NCBI GenBank assembly: GCA_036872755.1
Contig: JAVHNS010000007.1
Span: forward strand, 1,860,001-1,924,000
DNA: 64,000 nucleotides
Source: Orbilia blumenaviensis
Taxonomy: Eukaryota; Ascomycota; Orbiliomycetes; Orbiliales; Orbiliaceae
Reading direction: 5' to 3'
Shown here in pieces: positions 10,112 to 36,404 of the stretch. Under the pieces are notes generated by a model. It was not told the origin of the DNA, ran no database searches, and was given only the letters and a program-made list of their open reading frames with translations. Within the stretch, counting starts at the first letter, position 1; each line of letters begins with the position of its first letter. A program made the translations under genes and the position numbers.

Positions 10112-11840
10112 AAGCAATCAAGCATCAGAAGCTGAATTATATGATAGACTGCTCTAAGATGTACTACAGAGGTTCATTCATTGTTTTTGACATAGCTCCT
10201 GTCGCTACGAGGATAGCGGCTTACGAAGACATACCATTCAGGATTGTAGAAATCATTATTAATCAAGCGCTATTACGAGCCGTCTGAGGCCCAAGGATAA
10301 AACACGGACGATCAAAATAGTAGTTATTACCTAGGTACCTACCTATCCATACATGCTTAAGTACCTTAGGCTCGGTGGCCTATACTAATACTTACAGGTT
10401 CCTATAGGTACCCGGCACTTATACGCCTGGTGCCGTGAGATCCGGCCGACAGCTTCAGGCGCAGACGGCCAGCCAACATGACATTGCTGCACCCGGGCTG
10501 ATCTTGAGCGCCACGCAAATATGTCATGAAAAAGACTACAGTCGATCATTTCCCCTAATTACCGAAGATTTCCCACAACATTTGTGTTAGGTTTCACAGT
10601 CACCCGGGTGACAGTATAAGAAATATCAACTGCTCGACCAAAGCAGGCCATATGAGCCACATGTAGCCACATGCACATTTTTGGTGTGGCTTGCCCGTTG
10701 CACTGAAAGTCGGAGATCAAAATGCAACGTCCAACACACAGCGGTCTTAATTAAATTTGAACGGCGGACTAGATATGGCTCTACTCCATCACCTGGTTCG
10801 CCAAACCATATATATAATAATTGTCGCATCAACTTTAGGTTAGGCCCAAAATTTGTCGCATCTAGGTACCTGCAGAGATTTAGAAAGTGCAGTTGAGTAA
10901 CCACAGAAAGAGTTGGTTCGAAATGATCATTAGATAAACTCAAATCACACATTCTCAGAGGGCAATACGTATTTGACAGGCGAATTCGAGCTTCTGGGTC
11001 TAGTATTGCAGTAGAATAGAATCAAAGTTTTAAGCTCGCAATTGAGAAGACTTATACCTGGGTTGCGAGTGCCTAAGTTTCTAGGAACCTGGCAGTCGAA
11101 AATTTTGAGGACCACTTGTGCACCGTTGGCATCGTTCCAGTCCCATAAAATGATACGACCATGACGTCAAACATCCAATGGAGAATTGATATTTTAAGTT
11201 CTCAGTTTAATACTATGATACTAGAGTAAAATCTCTGTAAAAGACCGAAGAGTGCTGCTAACGCTCTCGCACTGTGTGTTCTGGCCAATTGGCAAGGGCA
11301 AACTATAATTCCTAAAGTCCAGTCCCTTACGACTGCTGAGCATCATAACCTGTCGACGCCTCACAACGACAATAATCTTCCTTTCTTCTTTCTTCCTCTC
11401 ATCTACCTCCCAGCACCAGTCACGACTAACATCACGAAAGCATCACCATCTACCCGCCTTTCTTCCCATCACGGAATCTCAAGTAAGTAATCATCATCGT
11501 TTTTTTCATCAAATCATCTTCTCGCTCTGGCTGTTACCTCCTCTTCTAAGTACGTCTAAAACGAGATGATATGATGGTTCAGCTCTGAAACTCGTTGCTG
11601 CGCACACTGCGGGGTCTTCAGCAACGAAATTTCCTAGCTGATTTAAACCACCTCTCGACGCGACTTTCTCCTCGATCTACCTTCTAGTATCCCCCCCCCC
11701 CCCCTCCTTTCACTCATTGACATCGCTTCCCGATCATCACTTCTCCTCTTCTCATCAATCCCTTTGATGCACCCTTTTCTTGAAGCTTATATCGTTTCAT
11801 TCTTCTTTTTCGCAGGAAACCAGTTTCTCAGCTTTCCAAT
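10112..11840. other. Intergenic region and 5' leader of the next gene
   Basis: From 10112 to about 11340 I see no gene, only short direct repeats of the TAGGTACC type (10328..10420). From about 11350 the DNA becomes pyrimidine-rich, as expected for a fungal promoter and leader, and includes a C14 run at 11691..11704. Confidence 0.5.
11483..11815 (+). other. Probable 5'-UTR intron
   Basis: Strong donor GTAAGT at 11483 and a pyrimidine-rich tract ending in TTTTTCGCAG at 11815, 25 bases before the ATG at 11841. The interval contains a C14 run. Splicing here is inferred from the consensus sites only. Confidence 0.5.
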
Positions 11841-13122
11841 ATGCCTTCAGTCGAGATCACCACTGCTGCCAAGCCCGCGACTACTATGTCGTCAATCGGT
11901 AAGTGCCCCCCCTCCCCCCCAAAAAAAAAAACAAATTAACTTGGTAGCCCCATTGGGGCCCCATTACCCTGAGCCCACCGTTGCTAACAGGACGTCCCCC
12001 GGCACGTCAATTGCAGGGGATGCTTGCTTCATCCCAGATTCTAACGCGCCCGAGCCAACTAATGGCACATCAGTTGAGCTTACAGCTTCGGCTGCTGCTC
12101 CTGATGCCTCGCCAGAGGGTCCCACCGGCTATGCAGAGTCGGTCCCTCAACCTACCGCCGTCACGAGCCCTCGATGGGCCGACTATGACGACGATGACGA
12201 TGACTGGGTTCCAGGCATCCTGCTGCCAGAGTCAGCAGACGGGGAGGGGCCAACCCCAGATATGGCCCAAGAAGGAGAGGAGGAGGAGGAGGAGGAGGAG
12301 GAAGAGGAGGAGGAGAGAGAGGAGGAGGAGGAGGAGGACGATAGCTTCTGGTACGACGAGAGGCGGGGGAGCTATATGTTCGGGGAGGAGCCACTCTCCT
12401 ATATCAATGGGGACGTGGTGACTCCCCAGGAGTCGATCAAAGACCCCGATTTCGAGGGGTACTGGAAAGACCGAACCACCGGCAGGGTTCATTTGTACTG
12501 CCGGAACCCATCCGTCGTCGCCGTCTATTCTGACGGCACGAGTAGCTGGCTTCCAGACAGCTACTACTGGGACCGTCATCCGTTGACGGCTCCCATGAGC
12601 AACTACGAGAGACTCACCGCGGAGTTCAACTCGGTTGCTCCGGCATCTGCCCAGCGGGGTAGATGCCTCCCAGCCAAAGCGGTTGGGAAGGCCGTGGCAC
12701 CGGCCACAGAACCCCGCCCCCAAGCCCCAGCCCCAGCTCCAGTCACAGTCGTGGCTCCCGCTCCCGCTCCCGCCCCAATCCCGGTCCTGGCCCCAGCTTC
12801 AGCTCCAGACCCGGTTCCTGCTGCCGCTGCCGCCCCGCCCATGCCCGAAGCGCCATCCCCACCACAACCAGAAGTGGTGGTTCCGTTAACTCCTTTGGAG
12901 TTTTTGATTTCGAGGGGTCTCTCCAGAGACCTGTGCGATACCACTCGTTCCGCCCCCCACCCGCGCCGCGCCGTCGTTGGGCCGATTAGGTCCCGACTTC
13001 AGGACTTTCGGTCGTCCTGGGCCTCAAAGGTGAGGTCTCCGGTCAGGTCGGTGAAGAGGGCCTACCGGAAAGTCGGTGACAAAATCGCCGACAAGTTTAT
13101 GGGGTTGTTCGACGCCTGTTAG
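11841..13122 (+). CDS. Acidic, Pro/Ala-rich protein of unknown function
   Basis: Exons 11841..11898 and 12017..13122 give 387 residues beginning MPSVEITTAAKPATTM. The acceptor after TTGCAG at 12016 is the one that keeps the long frame; the nearer acceptor CTAACAG at 11990 would shift it. The order is: short N-terminus, a DDDDDD stretch, a long Glu tract encoded by GAG/GAA repeats (around 12275..12340), a Trp/Tyr-rich segment (FWYDERRGSYMF...GYWKDRTTGRVHLY), a long Ala-Pro dipeptide region, and a basic Arg/Ser-rich C-terminus. I recognise no domain family. The GAG tract is a microsatellite and could vary in length between strains. The acidic-then-basic layout suggests a disordered nuclear or scaffolding protein, but that is speculation. 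Confidence 0.7.
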
Positions 13123-16476: not shown

Positions 16477-16998
16477 TTAGGCCTCAACAGGCTCTGGAAC
16501 CGGCTCCGGTTGACGCTTGTTTTTCTTTGGGCAAGAATTGTAGGGGCACCACGTCGGTTCGGCTTCTGGTGCCGCAACTGGTTCCGGCTCTGCAACTGGT
16601 TCTGGGATGGGTTCTGGGGCGGGTTCTGGCTCACGCTTCTTGTTTTTGGGGCAAGAGTTGTAGGGGCACCAGGTGGGCTCAGGCTCCGCGACTGGTTCTG
16701 GAGCGGGCTCTGGAATTGGAACTGGAGCACGCTTCCTCATCTTCTTTGGGCAGGAGTTATAGGGGCACCAGGTGGGCTCAGCCTCTGGAACCGGCTCTGG
16801 CTCTGCAACTGGGGCTGGAGCTGGAGCTGGAGCTGGAGCTGGCTCCCTCTTCTTGTGAGGGCAGGAGTTGAAGGGGCACCATTTGTGGGTTGGAACTGCC
16901 TCTGGACCTGCGAGAGCGAGAGCCTCAGGGTTGGCAGCTGGCAAAGCCAAGATGGGAGCAGCGAGAGCGGAGAAGAGGATGATAGACTTGAGTTGCAT
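16477..16998 (-). CDS. Alpha-factor-like peptide pheromone precursor with four peptide repeats
   Basis: Single exon, 173 residues. A signal peptide (cleavage likely after ILA at residue 18) is followed by four short peptides: [15 protein letters not shown] (37-51), [15 protein letters not shown] (76-90), [14 protein letters not shown] (109-122) and [14 protein letters not shown] (149-162). Each ends in a KR Kex2 site and has a Cys-x4-Cys pair. The spacers consist only of X-Pro/X-Ala dipeptides (9, 12, 9 and 13 of them), the substrate pattern of Ste13-type dipeptidyl aminopeptidase, and always stop in register just before TH or TW. This is the layout of ascomycete alpha-factor precursors, secreted and sensed by a Ste2-type receptor. 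The core WCPxNSCP differs from alpha peptides I know, so another Kex2-processed secreted peptide is possible. A TATA-like CTATATTATA lies about 95 bases upstream. Confidence 0.85.
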
Positions 16999-19900
16999 TT
17001 TGGAGATGTTGGTAGGTCGGCTTTCAGGTTACTTCAGTAGCTATTAGAAGGTATCGAAAAGAGAATATTGTGCCTTGAGGCGATGAAATCTATAATATAG
17101 AAGAAGAAGATAGCTAGGAGACTCCTGTGTATTGGATCTTCACCGTATTGAAGATTGATGAACCTGATGAGAGAATGGAATGACGATCAGGGGAAGTTGA
17201 GCCAACTTTATAGAAAGCTGGCATCCGCTGAAGCGTGGTCCTTGAGGACATGGGCTATCCTTACGATCATGGAATAGCTGCGGGTAGTATTGTTGTGCCC
17301 TCCTCCAACGTGGGTCCGTTTCTCGTGGCAACTTTGGAAATATTGAATCTTCAGACAATTCGGTTTAGTGCTAGTGCCATGGCCACTCTATCTGCCAACC
17401 AATTCCTCCAGGCCTCCTAACATGGTCCTGGGACAGATAATCCTCATACTGCAAGAATACTGTTTGAAGCGCTCAGCTGAGACCATGTTCGTCTAGAGTT
17501 GCAAGTGCACTGGCCAAAGTTGCAAAAGGTAAAGTTAAGTTATATTTCTTGGCACGAAGGGGGTTGCCGATGTTGGAATACGTACGAATGGAGTATTTCG
17601 AATTACGACTGTGCCTTCTGTCCCGAGCTGGTTGTGGTGCTGTGCCTTGGTCACTATGCCGGAAGTATAGTGGGCACTAAATTGTAATTTACGCGCCCAA
17701 CATCCGTATTCGTCCTAATGTTGTATTATTTTCCCGTAGACAGTGCACTGTAGATGATCTCATCTGGTCTCAAACCACCAAAACTTAGCATCCGTTACAC
17801 TAGCGAAGCGAATCCGAGCAGTCCCGTTGAAGGACACCCACATGAACGAAAGTCTCAGAAAAAAAATAATAATTTTGAACCGGTCCAATTGCTCCCGTCG
17901 TCGCGTGCCGTGCCCATGCCTCACCATCCCTTCTCGAGAAATTAGGAGCGCATTGACGGAAGGATTTGATCGCGCACATTGGATTTTTCTCCCTGAATTA
18001 AACTCGCACCTCATCGCAAAAAAAACAGCAGGTGACAGTGTAGGAATAGCGCTAAGCTGCTCGATACTAGCGCGCCCATTGGTCTGGGCTTGTGCTACGT
18101 TACCGGCTCCACCACTGAGGACCCCGGTTACCCCAGATCAAGATTTTTTTCTTCAAGTCACGGGAAAGAATGTTTCAGAGCTCCTGACAGCATAATAACG
18201 AATCGGCAATTTGTTACTCTCTGGGAGCTGTATTAAAAGGAGCTCGGGCAGCCCCCATAGGTTATCTTACAGAACGTTCGACCCACAACACAAGCGTTTT
18301 CCATTGGGCGTCTTATCGAAGTAGCCTTCCGAAGTCAATCCTAAGATGACCACAAAGCGAGTGGTTAATCCGTGCTTTGTGTTGGGCAAATTAAATTTCA
18401 ATGGTTATTTTCGATCTGACGGTGAGCTAGGTACATGGTTCGAGCGGGTCCTAGAGCAGCCGTGGCATACCGTAACTAGCTTCAAATCTCCCGATATCAC
18501 ATTGCCGTTATGTTATTATTTCGCTATGTTATCGTTTCGCGGTCTAACGCAATTCAATTGCAATTGGTGCACTAAAAATTCGACATTTTTGGCGAAGGGA
18601 AGTTCGGCAATGTTCTTGGAAGCAATATTGTTCTAGTGGGAGCACTCACCGCCCCGGTCTGAAGAATTCTGGGCTGCCGGTCCTGCCGGAAAGGGATAAT
18701 TTGAATCTGGAATACGAGATTAGGCCCAAGTCAGCTGTGATCATCCCACACACACAAAAGTATTGTTCGTTGCAGAATGTTGGGTAGAGTTGGTTCGGGC
18801 AGGCCTCCTTGCGGCTGGCGCACGGCTCGGTTTTCAGGCGATTCCACTCAGCTATCAGAATAAGCGAACGAAGGAGGCTGCACAAGGGCCCTTGGAGGGT
18901 GGGCATAAAAAAAGACTCAGTGGAGCTGTGCAGAAGCATCCTGCATCTGGCAAGTCGAATTCCATGGGTTTCAGAAGGGTGAAATTTCCTCGGTCTTGGT
19001 AGCACCACATCTTTTTTTTTATTTATTTATTTTTTATTTTTCTCGAATTTTTTTTTTGTGGGTGATGGCTTGACAGGGGTAATAAAATTTTCTGCGATGA
19101 GTTATTCGCTTCTACTGCATCTTATTATGCGTCGGCATGCATAGCGGTTTTTAGCTGGGGACATTATTGGCTTTGGCGAGGTATGTGGATACCACAGGGC
19201 TCAGCCGTCTTCGCGTTTCAATTCGAAACTGTCCAGATATCTTCGATTTTTGATTTGTGAGATTTTCTGGAATATTTTTGCGCATGACCAACTCCGTACA
19301 AAGTTTTTCCACCTGCAGTAGCTAGTAGGCGGCTCGTCGTCATCGACCAGTGGGGGTGGGAATTGACCGCGGCCGTTCAACCGATGCTAACGACAATGCA
19401 TTGAATCCAAGCTTTAATTGGTATTTATCTTACCTTGAAGGATATTTAGACTTTTTCCAACACAAAATATGAGGCGTTAGCATGGTCAATTAGCCAGGTA
19501 CCTGGGTATTAGAACTTCGTAGTGGTGTCCTCCTAAGCTGCTATCTGGCGCCCGACATCCTACTTGGAATAAGTCTTCCGATTTAGCCTAGGCAAATTTC
19601 TGCAGAACAGGGGACTTTTCAAGAGAAGCTACGCGAATCGTAAATGTGATTTGGTCTTCCAAGATTCAACAGATCCATGATGGATCATATCAGTCGGTAA
19701 GGCTCTCCCGGCAATGAGCTCCCTGGCTCCACCGTTTCGAAAATCCTAGCTATGGTCCCGGAACTCATAAAACTAGTCGAGACCTATCAGATATTCTAGA
19801 ATTGAGACATACATAAAGGTGAGGCATGTGTCCATATTACAACAGTCCTAGAGAGATCGAGATAGTGTAACCACACAGTCAATACGCACGAGAACGGCAC

Positions 19901-20810: not shown

Positions 20811-21026
20811 TCAACAGCTTTTATACAGTTTCTTCAGCCCGAAGCATTGCACTTTATCCAACGTCCCAACAGACATATCCGTAATTTCCTTTCCCTGGTT
20901 GATCACACCCTTCAATGGCTCGCTGTATACCCGCGGCTGTGGTTCTGGGACAGGTGCTGCAAGTATGGGTGCTGCTTGGGACACCAGAAGCAACGTTGCA
21001 CACGTGTATGTTGGTGAAACTTTCAT
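20811..21026 (-). CDS. Small secreted protein candidate, 71 residues
   Basis: The frame is open further upstream, but the ATG at 21026 gives a clean signal peptide: MKVSPTYTCATLLLVSQAAP followed by ILA, with cleavage probably before APVPEPQP. The mature part of about 45 residues has two cysteines (VQCFGLKKLYKSC at the end) and no KR processing site. No family is recognised. The composition fits a small secreted protein or effector-like peptide. No introns are needed. TATA-like DNA lies in the minus-strand upstream region near 21140. Confidence 0.5.
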   Translation of the reverse strand: MKVSPTYTCATLLLVSQAAPILAAPVPEPQPRVYSEPLKGVINQGKEITDMSVGTLDKVQCFGLKKLYKSC

Positions 21027-24000
21027 GATGAAAACGTTTTTTTTTTTAATCTTAATTGATCCTGGACAGGCGGTTACAGATGGAGGTGGGAGCAAATATT
21101 GGGCCAGTTGGAAGAAATAGAAATGGCGAATAGTGTATAAGTAAGTATAGATAACCGTCCTAAATTGAGTTCAGCCCGTTAGCAACTTTTGTTATAACGA
21201 AAATACAACGATTTGGGACGGCTCATCAATACAATACCTATATTTACGTAAGATATCACAACAGATTCTCCCGTGTCGGACTCCGCTTCTAGATAGATTT
21301 GATAACGAATATGCTTAAATGCACAACCTTAATTTTGCGGAGTTGGAGTTGGACAGCTAAACAGTCTCCTGCCGAAGGTGCGTGAATATTGCTATCTGTT
21401 GGTGTCTATATTTGATAGGGTAAAAAAAGCTAACATTGGTTGAAGAAATTTCCTGACTCTTATATTCACATCCTGAGCACACCAGTTGGCGGCTCAGATG
21501 ATATCCGAACAGCTCTCTATGACCTAGCACTTACAAAGCTGATACATGGTCTTCCTTCGAAATTGTGCACCGCAATGCAATTTGCAGGTTTCGAATATCA
21601 AGCGTCGGGCTACTAGAAGACTCAGTTACGCAAGATTAATTTGGGCTTTTCTTGTCGGCGGGTAGGAGCTTCCGCCGGTATAGCTGCCACCTGGCTAGGG
21701 CCATCCTGATAGTCGTCTCTGAGTTCCTTGCCAGGTTAAGGATCAACGTTCAAGTGATCAAAAGTGCCGTCGAGGGCCCCTGGACATGGGTAGAACCCAT
21801 GGCCCTAGCCGTTTGATAGCCCTTGATTTTGCCCGATCCGCCCTCCAAGAGCGAAAATCGATCTTATAGAATTGCGCACACCGAGTTCACCGGTCCGGGT
21901 TTCGAGATATAAAAACAGGACATCGGGTAATCTAACTCCGGTGAAAAACATCGGCCAGGTATTCCTCAGGGCCTAACAATTCCAAGATCGCTTGGTGACG
22001 GTCTTGAGCTCTTGTCGGCGGCTTCTGTGGAGTTCGATGAGATCATGATACCTTGGATGAGAACGTTTTATATTTAGCCTCAATTGCTTTTCAGACAGCC
22101 GGTTTTGAGCCGGCAGCCCTAAGACCATACTTTCTGGTACAAACGTAATTTGGCACTGTATCGGGGAAATAACACGGAAACACTAAAAATCCAATACTTC
22201 ATTTACATCATACCAGAATCTCCGAATAAATCGATCTCGAATTTCGAGGTTTTATTTTTAACTGCAACAATGTCAAACTTCATACTAGCGAAAGGATATG
22301 AGGGGAGAAACAGTTGTGGGATTTTATACGATTCGAAACTATGTTTGTGTTGACAGCGGGTATCGGGGAGAAACAGCCAATTAAGCCGGGCGGTGGTTCG
22401 GAGAATCCACTTTGAACAGCGCCAAGCCATGCAGGTACTCTCACATTGAAAGCTCACAAACACGAAATTTCAGCTGCAGGTAAAAAGGCTAGAGAGAGCA
22501 CACGACTTTGGTGCTGTACTTCCTCAATATAATTGACTTTTGAGCACAATTTTAATTGCAGTCCAGCTCCTTCAGTCTACGAGCCGTATGCAAGAATTGA
22601 TATATGCATTTCAAGTAATATCTGTTGATACATGGTATATAATTTCTCCGTTGAATGCCATTACGTAATGTATATAACTTGATCTTCTTCTTGCTTGAAT
22701 ACAGCGTGCTGCCTGCAACACAAAACATCGACAAGATCCCGTCCTATCTACCTACAGGTTGCCGACACAGTCACATCTGCAACCATTGCTCCGCGTCTAA
22801 ATGTCTGTCCTTAAACCATCCGAATCCCTGTAGAGGGCAAGTGCCACCACTGCCCTGTGTATGTCTACTTTAAACGGAGCCGGGGAAGCGGGTTTCCCCA
22901 GTTTCAATCTGTGCAATTGGGTACCCAAGTAAAGAGCGGGGCACCCGCGACCGCTAATGCAAAGACCACAAAGATGCGCAGATACATCACCACTTTAAAT
23001 TGCATGGTGGCAAATTGATATCGATGTCGTGTTCTGTATCACAGTAAGAATACGATGTTTGCTGGGATGATAAAGGTAACTAGTTTCGGAGTGCCAAGTT
23101 CAAGGGTGGATCCCGTCAAGATTTCGGCTTCACAGGTGGGTAGTTCCGATATATAACTCGAATTATGCCTGTTCTGAGATATAAAATTGTCATTAGAAAG
23201 AGTAATAGAGTTTGGGGAGTTGAGATTCTGCCACGTACAATTGTATAATTCGGCAGACGGAAGAAATATGAGAAGGGATCGAGAATGTTGAACGCCTAGA
23301 ATGCAGACAGGGTACGGCTTGTTTCCGAGCGAGCGAGGAATACCATGGACAGAGATAGATTAAAATTTGCTCGTCGACGGGAGTGGCTACCGGTTATACT
23401 TTATATGCATCCTAGACTAACGCCACGATTTGCTAAAATATTGATGTGACTGCTTCGTGATCTTAGCTAGTAGATCTATCATAAACAGAAGTGTTTGATT
23501 CTGTAAATCGAGATCTTGTCAATTGGTTCAGTAATCAAAATAGCTCAAAATTAATAATAATTTTTTTTTAAAAATAATAATAATAACAGTAATAATAATA
23601 ATAATAATTAGTAACAAATTTCCGAGGTTTCTTGTTTGTAAAAAAAAAATTGGGAACTACCTCCTAGGTAGATGTAAGCCACATTTGGTCTGTCGTGTAC
23701 CAACCCCTGTAGATGCGTTGTGCCCTCTAGTTGGCTTGTCGAAAAGGTGGGTGGTATACATACATTGTAGGGGCAGCGTACGCACCCCATATACCTGCCG
23801 AGAGCTCTCCCGAAACTCTTTTGAGGCCAAAATCTCACTTGTGACTGATAGGGGGAAATAAATTTGGAAATGGGACAGAGATCCACCTTCGAATAGGTGC
23901 GCCTTCGGAGCCGGCTTGAGCCTTCCTTTCCCTCATATCCCTCCACAGATTTGGTCTTTATAATATTATCGGAGTTCTTGGGTTCTCACATTACTTGTTA

Positions 24001-25104: not shown

Positions 25105-26512
25105 TCAAACTGGGGAGCTTCCTCGCGAAGACTCACGAATATCGGCACCGCCCTTTTCCTTGTCTGCAGATTTTTCATCGCTTTTACCGTCAGCACTTGT
25201 AGAATAAACATCGGTGGTTGCGCCGATCATAGATGGTGCCTTCTTAATGATCAAGGCCCGGATCGCGGGAACGCAGGAACAGATGATAGCGATATACATC
25301 TCAGCCATTCCCCAAATCAACCATTCTGATTGATCTGGTGGAAGCAAGCTCGGGGCTAAGATCTTGTGGAGCGAGTAAAAGCGGAAGCCACATGCAATGC
25401 AGGCCAAAGCGCCGACACCGAATGTAAGCGAGGCAAGGAGGCGTTCGCGGTTACCCTGAGTAATCTTCCAGACTAATGGAAGAGGAATCAGCCAGATAAC
25501 GACATCGGTAACGATATTCAAGGCGCCTGTAACGTCCATAGACTTAAGCCACATATCAGTCTTGCAGGTAGCGGTGAAATATTCCATCCCTATGAAGTCG
25601 TAATTTAGCATCTTTATGGAAAATTGAAATAGAAAATGTGGATTTTCGTACCATCAAAGGAAAGGACAGGACTACAACGGAAGACCCATGTGAAGATCAT
25701 AGCAAGGGAATTGCCCAAAGAAACCACCCAGGTGATACCGACTGCAACGCGGAGGGGCCACCATTGGGTCAATCCCCAGTAGAAAAGCAACAGTGAGGTC
25801 TTGATAAAAAACACTCCAACAGGGTAAAGTACTTCTGATGCCTTGCCGGAGTATTGGTCGTGGATGTAGTCGAGCCATGATCGATCCCAGTTACCCTGAA
25901 AATGAGTTGGGCCATTAAGCACTAGATATACAGTCAGTATTGGTCTGCCTTATGGGCTTCAATTGACGTATTTATGGTTATGGGTGACATACTTGCGGCA
26001 TTCATCGTGCCAAACCCGAAAGCAACAAGTGCAGCAAAAAGTAGCACGTAGTCGTGGCCACGGATGAAACCATTAATTGTTACACGAGAATATATTCTGA
26101 TTGCAATGAATGCAACCATTAAGACCGTGAACATGACGAGAACACCAATGAACTGGATGGAATTGTTGTGAGGGTGGCCAGCCTCGGGCATTACTTGGTT
26201 TACCATATCCACCAAATCCGGGAATGGGATTCCGACGTTCTCGCCAAAGAAGTCGAAGAGGAACTGGGTTCGCTCCTGTGATGTTCCGAGATACGGCGCT
26301 AATTGAGGGGCGGCGAGTGTTTTGTTCTCAATTTCTGGCCTGTTCAAAAATTCGGCAATGCTCAAGGAGAGATCCAAAGATTTTGTTTTCCGCCATTCAT
26401 CGCCTTGCGCTAACCAGGATAATGCACTACAGACATTATTGAGCAAGTTGAAAACGCTGGCGGTGACGTTTGTGGCCGTTAAGATGGCCTCCTCTGACGG
26501 GGATAAAGACAT
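25105..26512 (-). CDS. Fungal rhodopsin-like (PTH11-type) seven-transmembrane protein
   Basis: Exons, in minus-strand order, 26512..25993, 25921..25652 and 25589..25105 give 424 residues. The first 118 residues form a soluble N-terminal domain with NKT/NNS glycosylation sites. Hydrophobic segments follow: about 121-142 (FIGVLVMFTVLMVAFIAIRI), 155-172, a pair in exon 2 around KTSLLLFYWGL and WVVSLGNSLAMIFTWVF, and in exon 3 NIVTDVVIWLIPLPLVWKI, LTFGVGALACIACGFRFY and a last helix at EMYIAIICSCVPAIRAL. The NIVTDVVIWLIPLPLVWK block is the hallmark of the Fung_rhodopsin domain family, which includes PTH11-like receptors. The tail is charged and Ser-rich. No CFEM-like cysteine domain is seen at the N-terminus. 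Ligand and role are unknown. Confidence 0.88.
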
Positions 26513-29353
26513 CCTGTAAGTTTAAACCTCAACTTTAAAGAGAGTGGAAGGGAGCTCGAAAGAATAGTGGATTGATATGAGAGGCGAATCAGATTGGGAA
26601 GATGGTACCTGGATGTCTTGAGGTGAAATTTTGATGTTGAAGCACCGGCTCTTAGAACCTTTATACATCATCGCAAGGTACCTTCTACCCCGCCAGGCCC
26701 AGTGATGACAGGATGCGACTTGATATGTGGGTCTGCCAGCAGCTCGCACATCGTTCTCTATCTTATCGCCCTGATACGCCCTGACTACCGACAGAGCGGT
26801 GCAACCCCTGCAGATGTTTCAACGATTGGGAACCTTTTTGGGATTTTCTTAACATGATATCCAGAACAGAGCCCTTGATTAGCGAGACTAAACCAAACAT
26901 GGGAGCTAGCAGGAGAATACCCAGGATTTAGTACAATATTGTGTGTTACACTATCAACAATGAAAGCAACAAAGTAGATGCCAAGGTGTTTCCTGAAAAG
27001 AGTTAACAATTCTCATGATCTTGTGCAGAAATGGCAAAAGACGGTGGGGAAACATCCCATGACTGTGATTGCTGCTTTAGAGTTTGTAAGATTTTGAATT
27101 TCCATTGTTCCCAAACTCGCGATACTGTTTCAATCGAGTTTAGTCTTGTTTGTGTATACATACAAAGACTATAAGTGAAGTCGAACCCCACCACCATTGT
27201 CGTGAAAACACAATCGAAGCAACCGACTTTCGAAAAAAAAAAAAAGATGTTTTTTCAAAGACCAAACACATATAAGTGCACGACTCGCACCAAGACATTC
27301 CCGCGTTTCAAATGATCGTCTAAATCAATCCAAAATACGCCTCAGGTGCCTTCGGTAAAAACCTTGAGATTCTGACATTTGCAAGTCATGAATGCTATCA
27401 GAACGCCTATCGCACAAGAGATAACCTTCCCACTGTGCAGCATCTGCATTAGTATAGAAAGACCTGGAAATTTCAGACTTGCAAGCTTGTTTGCGACATG
27501 TACGTCGTGCATACTCCTGTGTGCGATATCACCTAATTAAATTTATAAATGCACGGAATATCAATGGTAACTTGCAAGTAATCCTGTTTATACCTGTATC
27601 TGCCACCGGAGCCCAGCAGACTTTATCCGAAATATTATTACTCTCACTGAACATCTTACTCGGGTCTACTATACCGCCTGGATGAGCATTTGAAAGTGTC
27701 TGTCATTTTCATCGATGCGAGTAGAAGGCAGTAGAAGGTAGCGTTAGGCGGAGTGGTCAGAGAATTCGAATATTCAGCCTCTTAGGTTTGATTCTCTGAG
27801 CTAGCTATCGAATAAATTTCATGATACCCCACATCACTTTTCTTGATAACGCACCAGCGACAGGGGTTGGATTATAAAGTTCGCAGAATTGATAATTCCA
27901 AAAAAGCCGAGTCCCGCCGTCAGTAATTTCCAACCCCGAAGAACTCGATGGTGCATGCAGAATTCATGATTCTAGACTTACCCAATAGGATAACCAATCT
28001 GAGAAACAGGCCCCAAAAGCCACTGCCGGCCCCGCCGTTGGAATTTTGTCAATTACATAGATGACGCTGTGCACGTGAAGCGTCGCTGCAAATGCAACGG
28101 CTGGGTGATGATGTGATGCGTTGGGGGGTCATTGCACCTACATCAGTACGTTTCGAATTCTGCTCAAATAGGGGAATAATGGGAGATTTTAAGAACCGAA
28201 AGCTCCGAATTCTTGATTTCTCTGCCCAGCCTACCCGATTCGGGCTGGCCTGAAAGCTTAATTTCAGAGGGACCTGTATGAATGTTCGTCCGATATAACT
28301 TTTGGAATTGAGATGGGAACAAGAAAAGTCAAGGTACGCTGAGGCCCACTCCAATAACTTCGCCATCAAGTCAACTTCGTGCTGCAAAGACATATATCAT
28401 ATCGTTCTTCAACGCTATTATTTCAAAAACTCCACTTTCTCGCATAGTATTAATCGAAGTCTCCACTTCATTGTAGTGGGGTTCTCAATTTTCGTCTACA
28501 TAATCCAATCGGAGCAATCAAGATGAATTCTCATGACGGCTGTCGGTTGAGATCAACGCAGTTGCGGACGGGAAGAACATCCAGCAGCGGTGATCAGGCG
28601 TCGACTCCTAAAGAAACCGCGGGATATACATGTAAAACGAAGAGTATCGCATGCATGCTAAAGCCTCCTTTTCACGTATACTGAATTATTGTTATATATC
28701 CTAGAGCATCGTACAGCCAAACACGATATCCTAGGCTTCGGGACTGGCGCGCAATGTGTGCGGTAGCTATATGTTGCGGGCTATAGAGCGGACTAGAACT
28801 ACGTCTTGCAATATTGCGGTTGTGCGGATCCACCATTAATTATATGGCAATATACCATAGCAAAAAACCAAAATACCAATCTGCAGGCTTTGGCATTGCC
28901 GTTGGAGAAGGAAGACCTATCAGTTCAGAGTGTGCTCTAGATGCCAAGACCCGGTTCGCAGTCGGGCTCGATTCGATATGCTTATCTTGTGCTTGGTGCG
29001 ATCTTGGCAGACAAAGTGAAACCTTTTTTTCGGCACTGAGCGAGGTTTACGTGAAAGGCTGTGAATACCATAATATGTATTTCGAGCTGTCTGCATCCAG
29101 CTAAATAGTGCATGCAATCAATGCAATAACGTAACAATTTTGTGGAAGACGATTTATAGCTTCGAGAAACTCAAAACTCTTTAGGAAGAGCGAGACAGTA
29201 GTTATTGTGTAATAAGGCGGCACAAAGGTGGGCTCCTGAAGTTGTCACAGGGCTTTTTTGATCTCGATCTTGATTGATGCTGGGGGTTTTCTGAATCGAC
29301 CCGCATAACTAACCCCGCCCGGGGTCTTGGAACGATGCTGCCACCATTTTCCT

Positions 29354-34269: not shown

Positions 34270-34998
34270 TCAGTCTTCCTCTTCATCAACTCCGTATCCC
34301 GGTTGGTAATAAGGTGGTCTAACCTTCGCAGACCACTTTAACGCTTTAGACTCCACAGTTGTAGTTAAAACTTGAGTCGTAGTTCTGACTGTGGTTCTAG
34401 TAGTGACCCTAGTAGAAGTCTTGGTTGCGGTCCTAGTGGAAGAGGTCCTATACGTGGACGTAGCTATAGCCCTGGCCTTAGTCCTAGTTGTAGTTTTGGT
34501 AGGTAGTGGCTTTTTATTGGGCTCAGGTTCAGGGTCCTCGGGCTTTTCAGTGTCTGGAATGCCTGGATACTCGGGGAAAGGTAAAATATGGACCTCATCG
34601 GGATTTCGAGTTGCAGTTGCCCGGGGCCCCACTTTGTTTAAGTAATCTGACCATTTAGGTCCCTTTTTAGGTCTTCTTGTTGGGCGTGGCAATTGCTCAA
34701 TCGTGGTCGTGGTCGTGGTCGTGGTCTTGGTTATAGTTTTAGCAGTGGTAGAAGTGGTAGAAGTGGTATAGTCAACGGGTAGAATATGGATAGGACGCGG
34801 CTCTGGGGCAGGCCCAACGTGGATAGGACGTGGCTCTGGCTTCAGTTTTGGTGTCGTGGCCTCGTAAACGATATCAATGAATGCCAAAGATGGCTCACGT
34901 TTCGCCGGGGTCGATTCATGTCCTGCGAGAGGCCCGGCTGGGTGGGCGAGGGTTCCGCCTAGCGCAGCAAGAATAGAGAGCAAATGAATCCACTGCAT
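34270..34998 (-). CDS. Thr/Pro-rich secreted protein
   Basis: Single exon, 242 residues. A signal peptide of about 18 residues (MQWIHLLSILAALGGTLA) is followed by a possible Kex2 site (PAKREPSL) near residue 34. Two tandem EPRPIH motifs follow (EPRPIHVGPAPEPRPIHILP). Then come long Thr-rich tracts (TTSTTSTTAKTITKTTTT and later RTKARAIATSTYRTSSTRTA), a KWSDYLNKVG segment, a Pro/Glu linker and the tail DEEED. Dense Thr/Ser suggests O-glycosylation and a cell-wall or surface role. I see no GPI-like hydrophobic tail, so the protein is probably released or trapped in the wall. Unknown family. Confidence 0.72.
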   Translation of the reverse strand: MQWIHLLSILAALGGTLAHPAGPLAGHESTPAKREPSLAFIDIVYEATTPKLKPEPRPIHVGPAPEPRPIHILPVDYTTSTTSTTAKTITKTTTTTTTTIEQLPRPTRRPKKGPKWSDYLNKVGPRATATRNPDEVHILPFPEYPGIPDTEKPEDPEPEPNKKPLPTKTTTRTKARAIATSTYRTSSTRTATKTSTRVTTRTTVRTTTQVLTTTVESKALKWSAKVRPPYYQPGYGVDEEED

Positions 34999-36404
34999 TC
35001 TAAAATGAAAATAAACCGTAGAGCGTTTTAAGTAAATATACTGATAGGGTCGAGAACTTTGGAATTTAAAATGGGAAAGAAGCCTGCTTCTCTTGTTTTT
35101 CCGGTAGCGAAAGTGAGCAATATATTAATACCAACGATGGTGTACAAAAAGTAAGGATAGTATATCAGTCAGTTATTCGATGAGGGTAAAGAATATAAGC
35201 AAGTCTATATCATGGAATTAAGGCTTCTTTATAGGTCCAAGCCTGTGAGAATCGTGGTTCTTCCGACTATTGTAGATTGCGGTCTACATTCATGCCGCTA
35301 ATTAACCTCCAAACTCTGTGTTTACTATACGTAAGTAGTAGAAACAAGTTTGTGATACCGTAATATAATAGGAGCATCATCAATATTATGCAGTGGACGG
35401 TATCGATAATCCCTCTCCATATCCAGTAGGTCCTCCGTGCTCCGCATAATTTTCCATAATATGCGGTTTAACTGTAGTGCTGACAGGCCCTGTTGGTGTT
35501 GAGGAGACTGCATCTTTGTTTCATAACCTCGCTTGTCGCCGCAGGCTGACAGGGGCAAGCCTTTCAAGAAAAACGGAAGCCAATTAGCACATCAATGCCA
35601 AAGATAGCCACACCATTTTTATTTGCTGATGAAGCGAGAAAAGATAGAGAAGGCCAAGGGGATTGTTGATATTATCAGTTTCAAAGCTTCGGGGTACGGC
35701 AGGAAATGAGATGTTGCGGGTATGCGGTCATGTGTAAGACAACTCCGTGTTGACGCACAGAATTCAGGAGCTGATATCGATATGTACTGTGTGGTATCGA
35801 TACAGTACCTAACAATCTTGGCAAGCTTGCAATCGGCCATGAAATGGGGACCTATATCCTCTGTATACATTCACTGCCACTAGATTATAATAACCTTAAG
35901 CACTTCTTCAATTACAAATCAAGCTGTAAAAACGTGATCGCTAACACAAAACCTCCGATTTAAAGTACAAACTGATTCCGGATTCCACGACCGTTTTTAA
36001 CTTGGTCAATCAGAACATATGTTATATATAGGGGATACAGGAGTAATATTAAACGCTATAAAGCCTTGGCCGCATAAAAACAATATTGCACCCCAATATT
36101 TACGCGGAGAGCAAGCCGTCGCCAGGACGTCGCCCTAGAACTAGACAAAACATCATATCCTCCAGCTCTGTCGCCATATGTATCTATCCTTGCCATTCTA
36201 GGCACCGAAAAGTCGTGAGTTTGAAGTTGATAATTATATGAGCCTGGCCCCGGAAGATCCGGATATGCACATGTACGGGTGTGCTTGAAATGACCATCGC
36301 TCATTATATGGTTCCAAGTTTAATCATTTGAGTACAAAGGATTGCCGGGCCCCGATGGAACGTCGAATCTGCATGATAACCGCTGCTAGTCTTGGTTCGT
36401 GGAT
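34999..36404. other. Intergenic region
   Basis: Promoter of the Thr-rich gene on the left, the 3' flank of the 52-residue secreted peptide on the right. Short frames lack domains. Nothing else is supported. Confidence 0.4.

Follow-up and report, generated by a model that had tools for sequence, protein, structure and literature searches.

What does a gene of Orbilia blumenaviensis make when it encodes four short cysteine-bracketed peptides in tandem, and to whom are these peptides addressed? The assembly comprises 23 contigs and 42.46 Mb, and the gene lies within its segment C7:1860001-1924000, a stretch of 64,000 nucleotides that we call the window. A sequence-only reading had taken it for a pheromone-like precursor. 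The architecture of the open reading frame (ORF), the genes for processing enzymes and the single Ste2 of the genome support that reading, and from them we infer the pheromone role itself. We consider it very probable that the gene encodes the precursor of an alpha-factor-type mating pheromone of O. blumenaviensis.

Layout of the precursor

The frame of 173 residues plus stop translates with no internal stop codon (Table 1). By eye, its N-terminus is hydrophobic, with Ala at position -1 of an assumed cleavage site ILA/LP. The repeats comprise three identical nine-residue peptides and one 11-residue variant, each followed by KR two to four residues past the core. Beyond the last KR, the remnant runs through four in-phase dipeptides before the register breaks. 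The open frame of 189 codons on the opposite strand has no comparable layout by eye, and a Pfam search with the 173-residue precursor returned no match above the cut-off.

Table 1. Features of the candidate pheromone precursor gene, in window coordinates.
Feature	Position	Strand	Remarks
Alpha-factor-type precursor ORF (P0002), 173 aa	16477..16998	-	Stop codon 16477-16479; single genome match
Signal-peptide-like N-terminus, 18 residues	16945..16998	-	Read by eye; 4 of 10 trial cleavage sites preserve the register
Leader, 9 in-phase X-Pro/X-Ala dipeptides	16891..16944	-	No KR ahead of peptide 1
Peptide 1 core, 11 residues	16858..16890	-	THKW start, CPFNSCP
KR site 1	16846..16851	-	Tail HKKR
Spacer, 12 X-Pro/X-Ala dipeptides	16774..16845	-	
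Peptide 2 core	16747..16773	-	TWCPYNSCP
KR site 2	16729..16734	-	Tail KKMRKR
Spacer, 9 X-Pro/X-Ala dipeptides	16675..16728	-	
Peptide 3 core	16648..16674	-	TWCPYNSCP
KR site 3	16633..16638	-	Tail KNKKR
Spacer, 13 X-Pro/X-Ala dipeptides	16555..16632	-	
Peptide 4 core	16528..16554	-	TWCPYNSCP
KR site 4	16513..16518	-	Tail KKNKR
C-terminal remnant, 11 residues	16480..16512	-	No peptide after

Dipeptide register and history of the repeats

The sequence-only reading claimed that the four Cys-x4-Cys peptides are preceded by stretches composed of X-Pro or X-Ala dipeptides, in phase. With signal cleavage taken as ILA/LP and cuts after every KR, this was confirmed for all 43 dipeptides across the four stretches (9, 12, 9 and 13), each of which ends right before TH or TW. 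Shuffling residues within each stretch gave chances of a perfect register of 2.1e-4, 2.3e-3, 1.1e-3 and 1.0e-5. The joint value of 5e-15 agrees with the claim that the register is unlikely by chance, but overstates independence, because the spacers may be related by duplication: the shuffling keeps composition and not repeat history, and so measures order rather than the independent origin of spacers. A period of 99 bases over 16649-16827 (1.8 copies, 77% matches; Tandem Repeats Finder) indicates that at least some units look duplicated. That the leader, too, is built of phased dipeptides was borne out for the ILA/LP site, although the value of its register hinges on where the signal is cleaved (4 of the 10 sites tried run in register to THKW).

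The three copies of TWCPYNSCP differ at five of nine codons, in every case synonymously (about 3e-4 under random change), which supports coding on the minus strand. Such differences fit selection on the peptide; gene conversion can also homogenise copies.

Comparison with known alpha-factors

The layout of alpha-factor precursors published in PMC10569646, in the portion available to us, is that of the Orbilia precursor. We found repeats of a conserved peptide in the 9-14 residue range, XA/XP dipeptides right before each repeat and a Kex2 site behind each. The gene resembles ascomycete ppg1-type precursors, here those of Leotiomycetes (PMC10569646, same portion), in its start, signal-like by eye, its tandem short Cys peptides and the XA/XP before and KR after them; it differs from them in a leader that itself consists wholly of in-phase dipeptides. 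The feature that we did not find is the GQ or PG turn, which the same text places in the 'vast majority' of alpha-factor cores and which neither CPYNSCP nor CPFNSCP contains. Its absence does not exclude membership, since accepted members lack GQ, such as those of Pleosporales with cores of another kind (PYGxPxG; PMC6339444, accessible text). All six Leotiomycete repeats quoted in the available part of PMC10569646 are Cys-x6-Cys with GQ (WCGRPGQPC, CKYVGQGCW, CKYAGQGCW, RCGHPGQPCG, RCGYPGQPCG and RCGARGQGCW), whereas the Orbilia core is Cys-x4-Cys with PYNS or PFNS and has no GQ or PG.

The Orbilia core may have precedent in another Orbiliomycete. Its description in the sequence-only reading as unlike known alpha-pheromones stands against the Leotiomycete GQ/PG cores with their longer ring, and may not hold beside WCVYNSCP, which Billerbeck et al. 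(2018) reportedly list in their supplement as the alpha-factor of Dactylellina haptotyla. If that listing is right, the two would share the Cys-x4-Cys ring and the YNSCP end, the Dactylellina peptide having Val for Pro after Cys1. The short ring would then be the ordinary alpha-factor core of Orbiliomycetes, which would lower the novelty of the Orbilia peptide and raise confidence in its function. The main text of that peptide-GPCR study (PMC6265332) contains none of the Orbiliomycete terms looked for, and that of PMC6339444 makes no mention of names in Orbili-, Arthrobotrys, Dactylellina, Drechslerella or nematodes.

Mating machinery in the genome

The sequence-only reading had also proposed a search for a Ste2-type receptor and for kex2 and ste13 homologues. 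The genome that carries the precursor holds one Ste2, a Kex2-type gene and a membrane-anchored Ste13-type gene, the two protease types being assigned by eye; all counts from these genome searches are lower bounds. Ste2 was the single match over the cut-off (152.8 bits; L002, C17:66198-66926), and among solved protein chains it matched ones that bear the name pheromone alpha factor receptor, at E 1.5e-17. A public protein of O. blumenaviensis matches it at 98% identity over 90% of its length. Among the 16 other relatives found, six named Orbilia or Arthrobotrys stand at 75-78% and the other ten at 53-61%, the latter comprising Dactylella, Dactylellina, Drechslerella, more Orbilia and Arthrobotrys and one unnamed (the alignment took in 10 of the 17 homologues). 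The STE2 Pfam domain is present in 17 of 17, and eight bear the public name 'Proteasome subunit beta type-5'; our guess is that this naming perhaps reflects transfer of the gene name PRE2.

Ste3 and the P-domain each gave one genome match with one stop inside it, and these stops are probably introns. The frames adjoining the P-domain match are subtilase-like with a membrane tail, by eye of the Kex2 type. The two DPPIV_N genes differ at their N-termini, again by eye: one has a cytoplasmic tail and an N-terminal membrane anchor like Ste13, the other a signal peptide.

The mating-type locus was not located. No MATalpha-box match was found in the genome, and the control genomes gave none either. 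Eight HMG matches were found, none assigned to MAT1-2. An SLA2-type domain lies on C10, and the 25 kb around it contain no HMG motif by regular expression in ORFs of at least 70 aa. The top HMG match (C3:1199577; L029, L037-L038) is an exon that seems to run on into a frame of 553 codons; by eye, we take this gene to be possibly a Ste11/FMF-1-type regulator, and not MAT1-2-1. As with the MAT genes, it counts against the pheromone reading that the Ste12-type motif TGAAACA is absent from the 1 kb upstream of the precursor (the nearest on that side is at 18171-18177), and its nine occurrences in the window are at chance level (11 expected).

Searches for homologues and rival precursors

Searching the genome with the precursor gave one match. 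Against a set of 5.8 billion proteins, 8000 candidates were scored for the whole precursor and six of them reached E <= 10, the best at 0.33; the precursor with its spacers masked as X gave none at E <= 10 among 380 candidates. Neither search yielded a homologue, and hence none of known function, which speaks against the pheromone reading. The precursor itself is absent from this set, in which a self-match would give about 2e-101, so it is probably missing from public annotation. We gauged the negative result with a local scoring control in which filters were switched off and each design was represented by a single artificial sequence. Designs that kept the peptides and changed the spacers reached E values between 1e-23 and 1e-41. 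For a version with WCVYNSCP the masked query gave 9e-20 and the whole one 1e-30, and for a Neurospora-type GQ version the whole query gave 6e-4 and the masked one 2e5. The negative result is therefore strong where annotated relatives would carry identical peptides and weak for diverged ones; the control covers scoring and not the exact-word candidate step, at which a WCVYNSCP relative may have been missed.

At the DNA level, the core pattern had 28 genome matches (20 for the backward control), four of them inside the precursor gene and the remaining 24 single and widely separated. The pattern WCxxxGQxC matched at seven distant places (backward control, one). Translating about 600 bases on each side of all seven revealed no repeated precursor, and thus no rival canonical precursor was seen. 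Text searches of the accessible literature for the peptide motifs of the core and precursor returned nothing relevant, and one for Orbilia with pheromone precursor found nothing; by title, the matches listed in broader literature searches included no report of an Orbiliomycete mating pheromone.

Elsewhere in the window, an F-box/cyclin-D1-binding gene occupies 8.1-10.1 kb. A fungal rhodopsin domain (PF20684; 25105-25653, minus strand) is found some 8 kb away from the precursor, next to a frame without a Pfam match that may be an earlier exon (25934-26521, minus). Three further ORFs without Pfam matches were noted: a small one with a signal-peptide-like start, a PVPEPQP stretch and a KLYKSC end (20811-21170, minus); a secreted-looking one that has a KR site and in which two EPRPIH repeats precede a Thr-rich stretch (34270-35124, minus); and one of 491 codons that contains a long run of Glu as well as a stretch rich in Pro and Ala (11647-13122, plus). 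Scans of the 64-kb window for tRNAs and, at gathering score, for Rfam families found none, one stretch of it had no match in the plasmid collection, and a scan for bacterial-type promoters and terminators was at chance and is uninformative for this fungal DNA.

Proposed processing

On the pheromone reading, the signal peptide would direct the precursor into the secretory pathway and Kex2 would cleave behind every KR. A Ste13-type membrane dipeptidyl aminopeptidase would then remove X-Pro and X-Ala pairwise, halting at T-W or T-H. Because the leader has no KR, peptide 1 would be released by the dipeptidase working from the end left by signal peptidase. Kex1-like trimming, possibly with cleavage at KK, would shape the C-terminus. 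The products would be short peptides in which the Cys residues, separated by four others, are predicted to close a disulfide ring of six residues (W-CPYNSC-P), and they would be sensed by the sole genomic Ste2 on cells of the opposite mating type.

The sequence-only reading had predicted mature peptides trimmed to the same start and built on cores such as TWCPYNSCP; the starts are indeed uniform, but the ends are less certain than it says. Rule-based Kex2/Kex1 digestion yielded starts that are all T-W or T-H and ends in -CPH, -CPKKM, -CPKN and -CPKKN; the ends are uneven because an H, M or N between core and KR halts the trimming of basic residues. By these rules alone, plain TWCPYNSCP needs KK cleavage or another peptidase; the tails may be tolerated, or some of them may be removed through cleavage at KK. 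For alpha-factor precursors, PMC10569646 describes additional residues that separate the repeat from its KEX site, and it counts KK as such a site.

Other readings of the gene

The alternative that survives best, although we regard it as unlikely, is that the gene encodes a Kex2-processed repeat protein (KEP) and that its peptides act, through Ste2 or another GPCR, as an autocrine signal outside mating, for example between hyphae or in responding to prey. The Orbilia precursor shares with KEPs the secreted, Kex2-cut repeats and, with some of them, the STE13 signature, and KEPs form a class without a single function (PMC6339444, accessible text). According to the same text, Basidiomycota have KEPs with STE13 signatures and no alpha-pheromone mating role, whose peptides may be hormones, so the layout alone is no proof of a pheromone. 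Against this stands its statement that in Ascomycota the STE13 signature is generally dedicated to alpha-pheromones; in addition, genome searches with the precursor and with the WCxxxGQxC pattern showed no other candidate precursor for the genome's Ste2, and a dual use would be compatible with a pheromone role.

We give far less credence to a peptide aimed at nematodes that mimics their neuropeptide nematocin, CFLNSCPYRRY-NH2. Orbilia and Arthrobotrys, the names borne by the closest Ste2 relatives, belong to the nematode-trapping group. Equally improbable in our view is the combined idea that one secreted peptide addresses both mates and prey, the Orbilia pheromone core also mimicking nematocin by having, or having been shaped to have, the ring recognised by nematode NTR receptors. 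CPYNSCP and Caenorhabditis elegans nematocin have in common C-x2-N-S-C-P and a six-residue ring, and of the 39 peptides of vasopressin/oxytocin type compared (PMC7181382, Table 1) nematocin alone matches at five of the first seven positions, octopressin at four. With assumed background frequencies, a random ring would match nematocin at two or more of the four inner positions in about 2% of cases. For a match to one or other of the 22 distinct listed rings, a set that excludes the two peptides lacking Pro behind the ring, the figure is about 18%, and the resemblance could well be chance. Nematocin is an animal neuropeptide with a free Cys1 and a C-terminal amide, whereas the Orbilia core has T-W or T-H-K-W ahead of Cys1 and no Gly after it for amidation. 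Of the vasopressin/oxytocin features, an N-terminal Cys1, a C-terminal amide and a neurophysin, the precursor has none; the processing layout points to a pheromone, and the resemblance comes with no evidence of common descent.

The least credible reading is that the gene gives rise to a dikaritin, a ribosomal peptide cyclised in the UstYa manner, to which Kex2-cut repeats with Tyr or Phe in the core would be suited, given that the four genomic UstYa matches lie on C2, C9 and C12 and none on C7, the window's contig, that ten chosen window ORFs contain no UstYa match, and that the STE13 signature is absent from the precursors of toxic cyclic tetrapeptides and epichloecyclins in the accessible text of PMC6339444.

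Implications

An alpha-factor-type mating pheromone precursor thus remains our favoured reading of the gene. For relatives of the nematode-trapping fungi it provides both a candidate mating pheromone and a candidate for its receptor, and it would make Orbiliomycete mating directly testable with synthetic peptides. Its short-ring, GQ-free core would be an addition to the alpha-factors to which Ste2 may respond.
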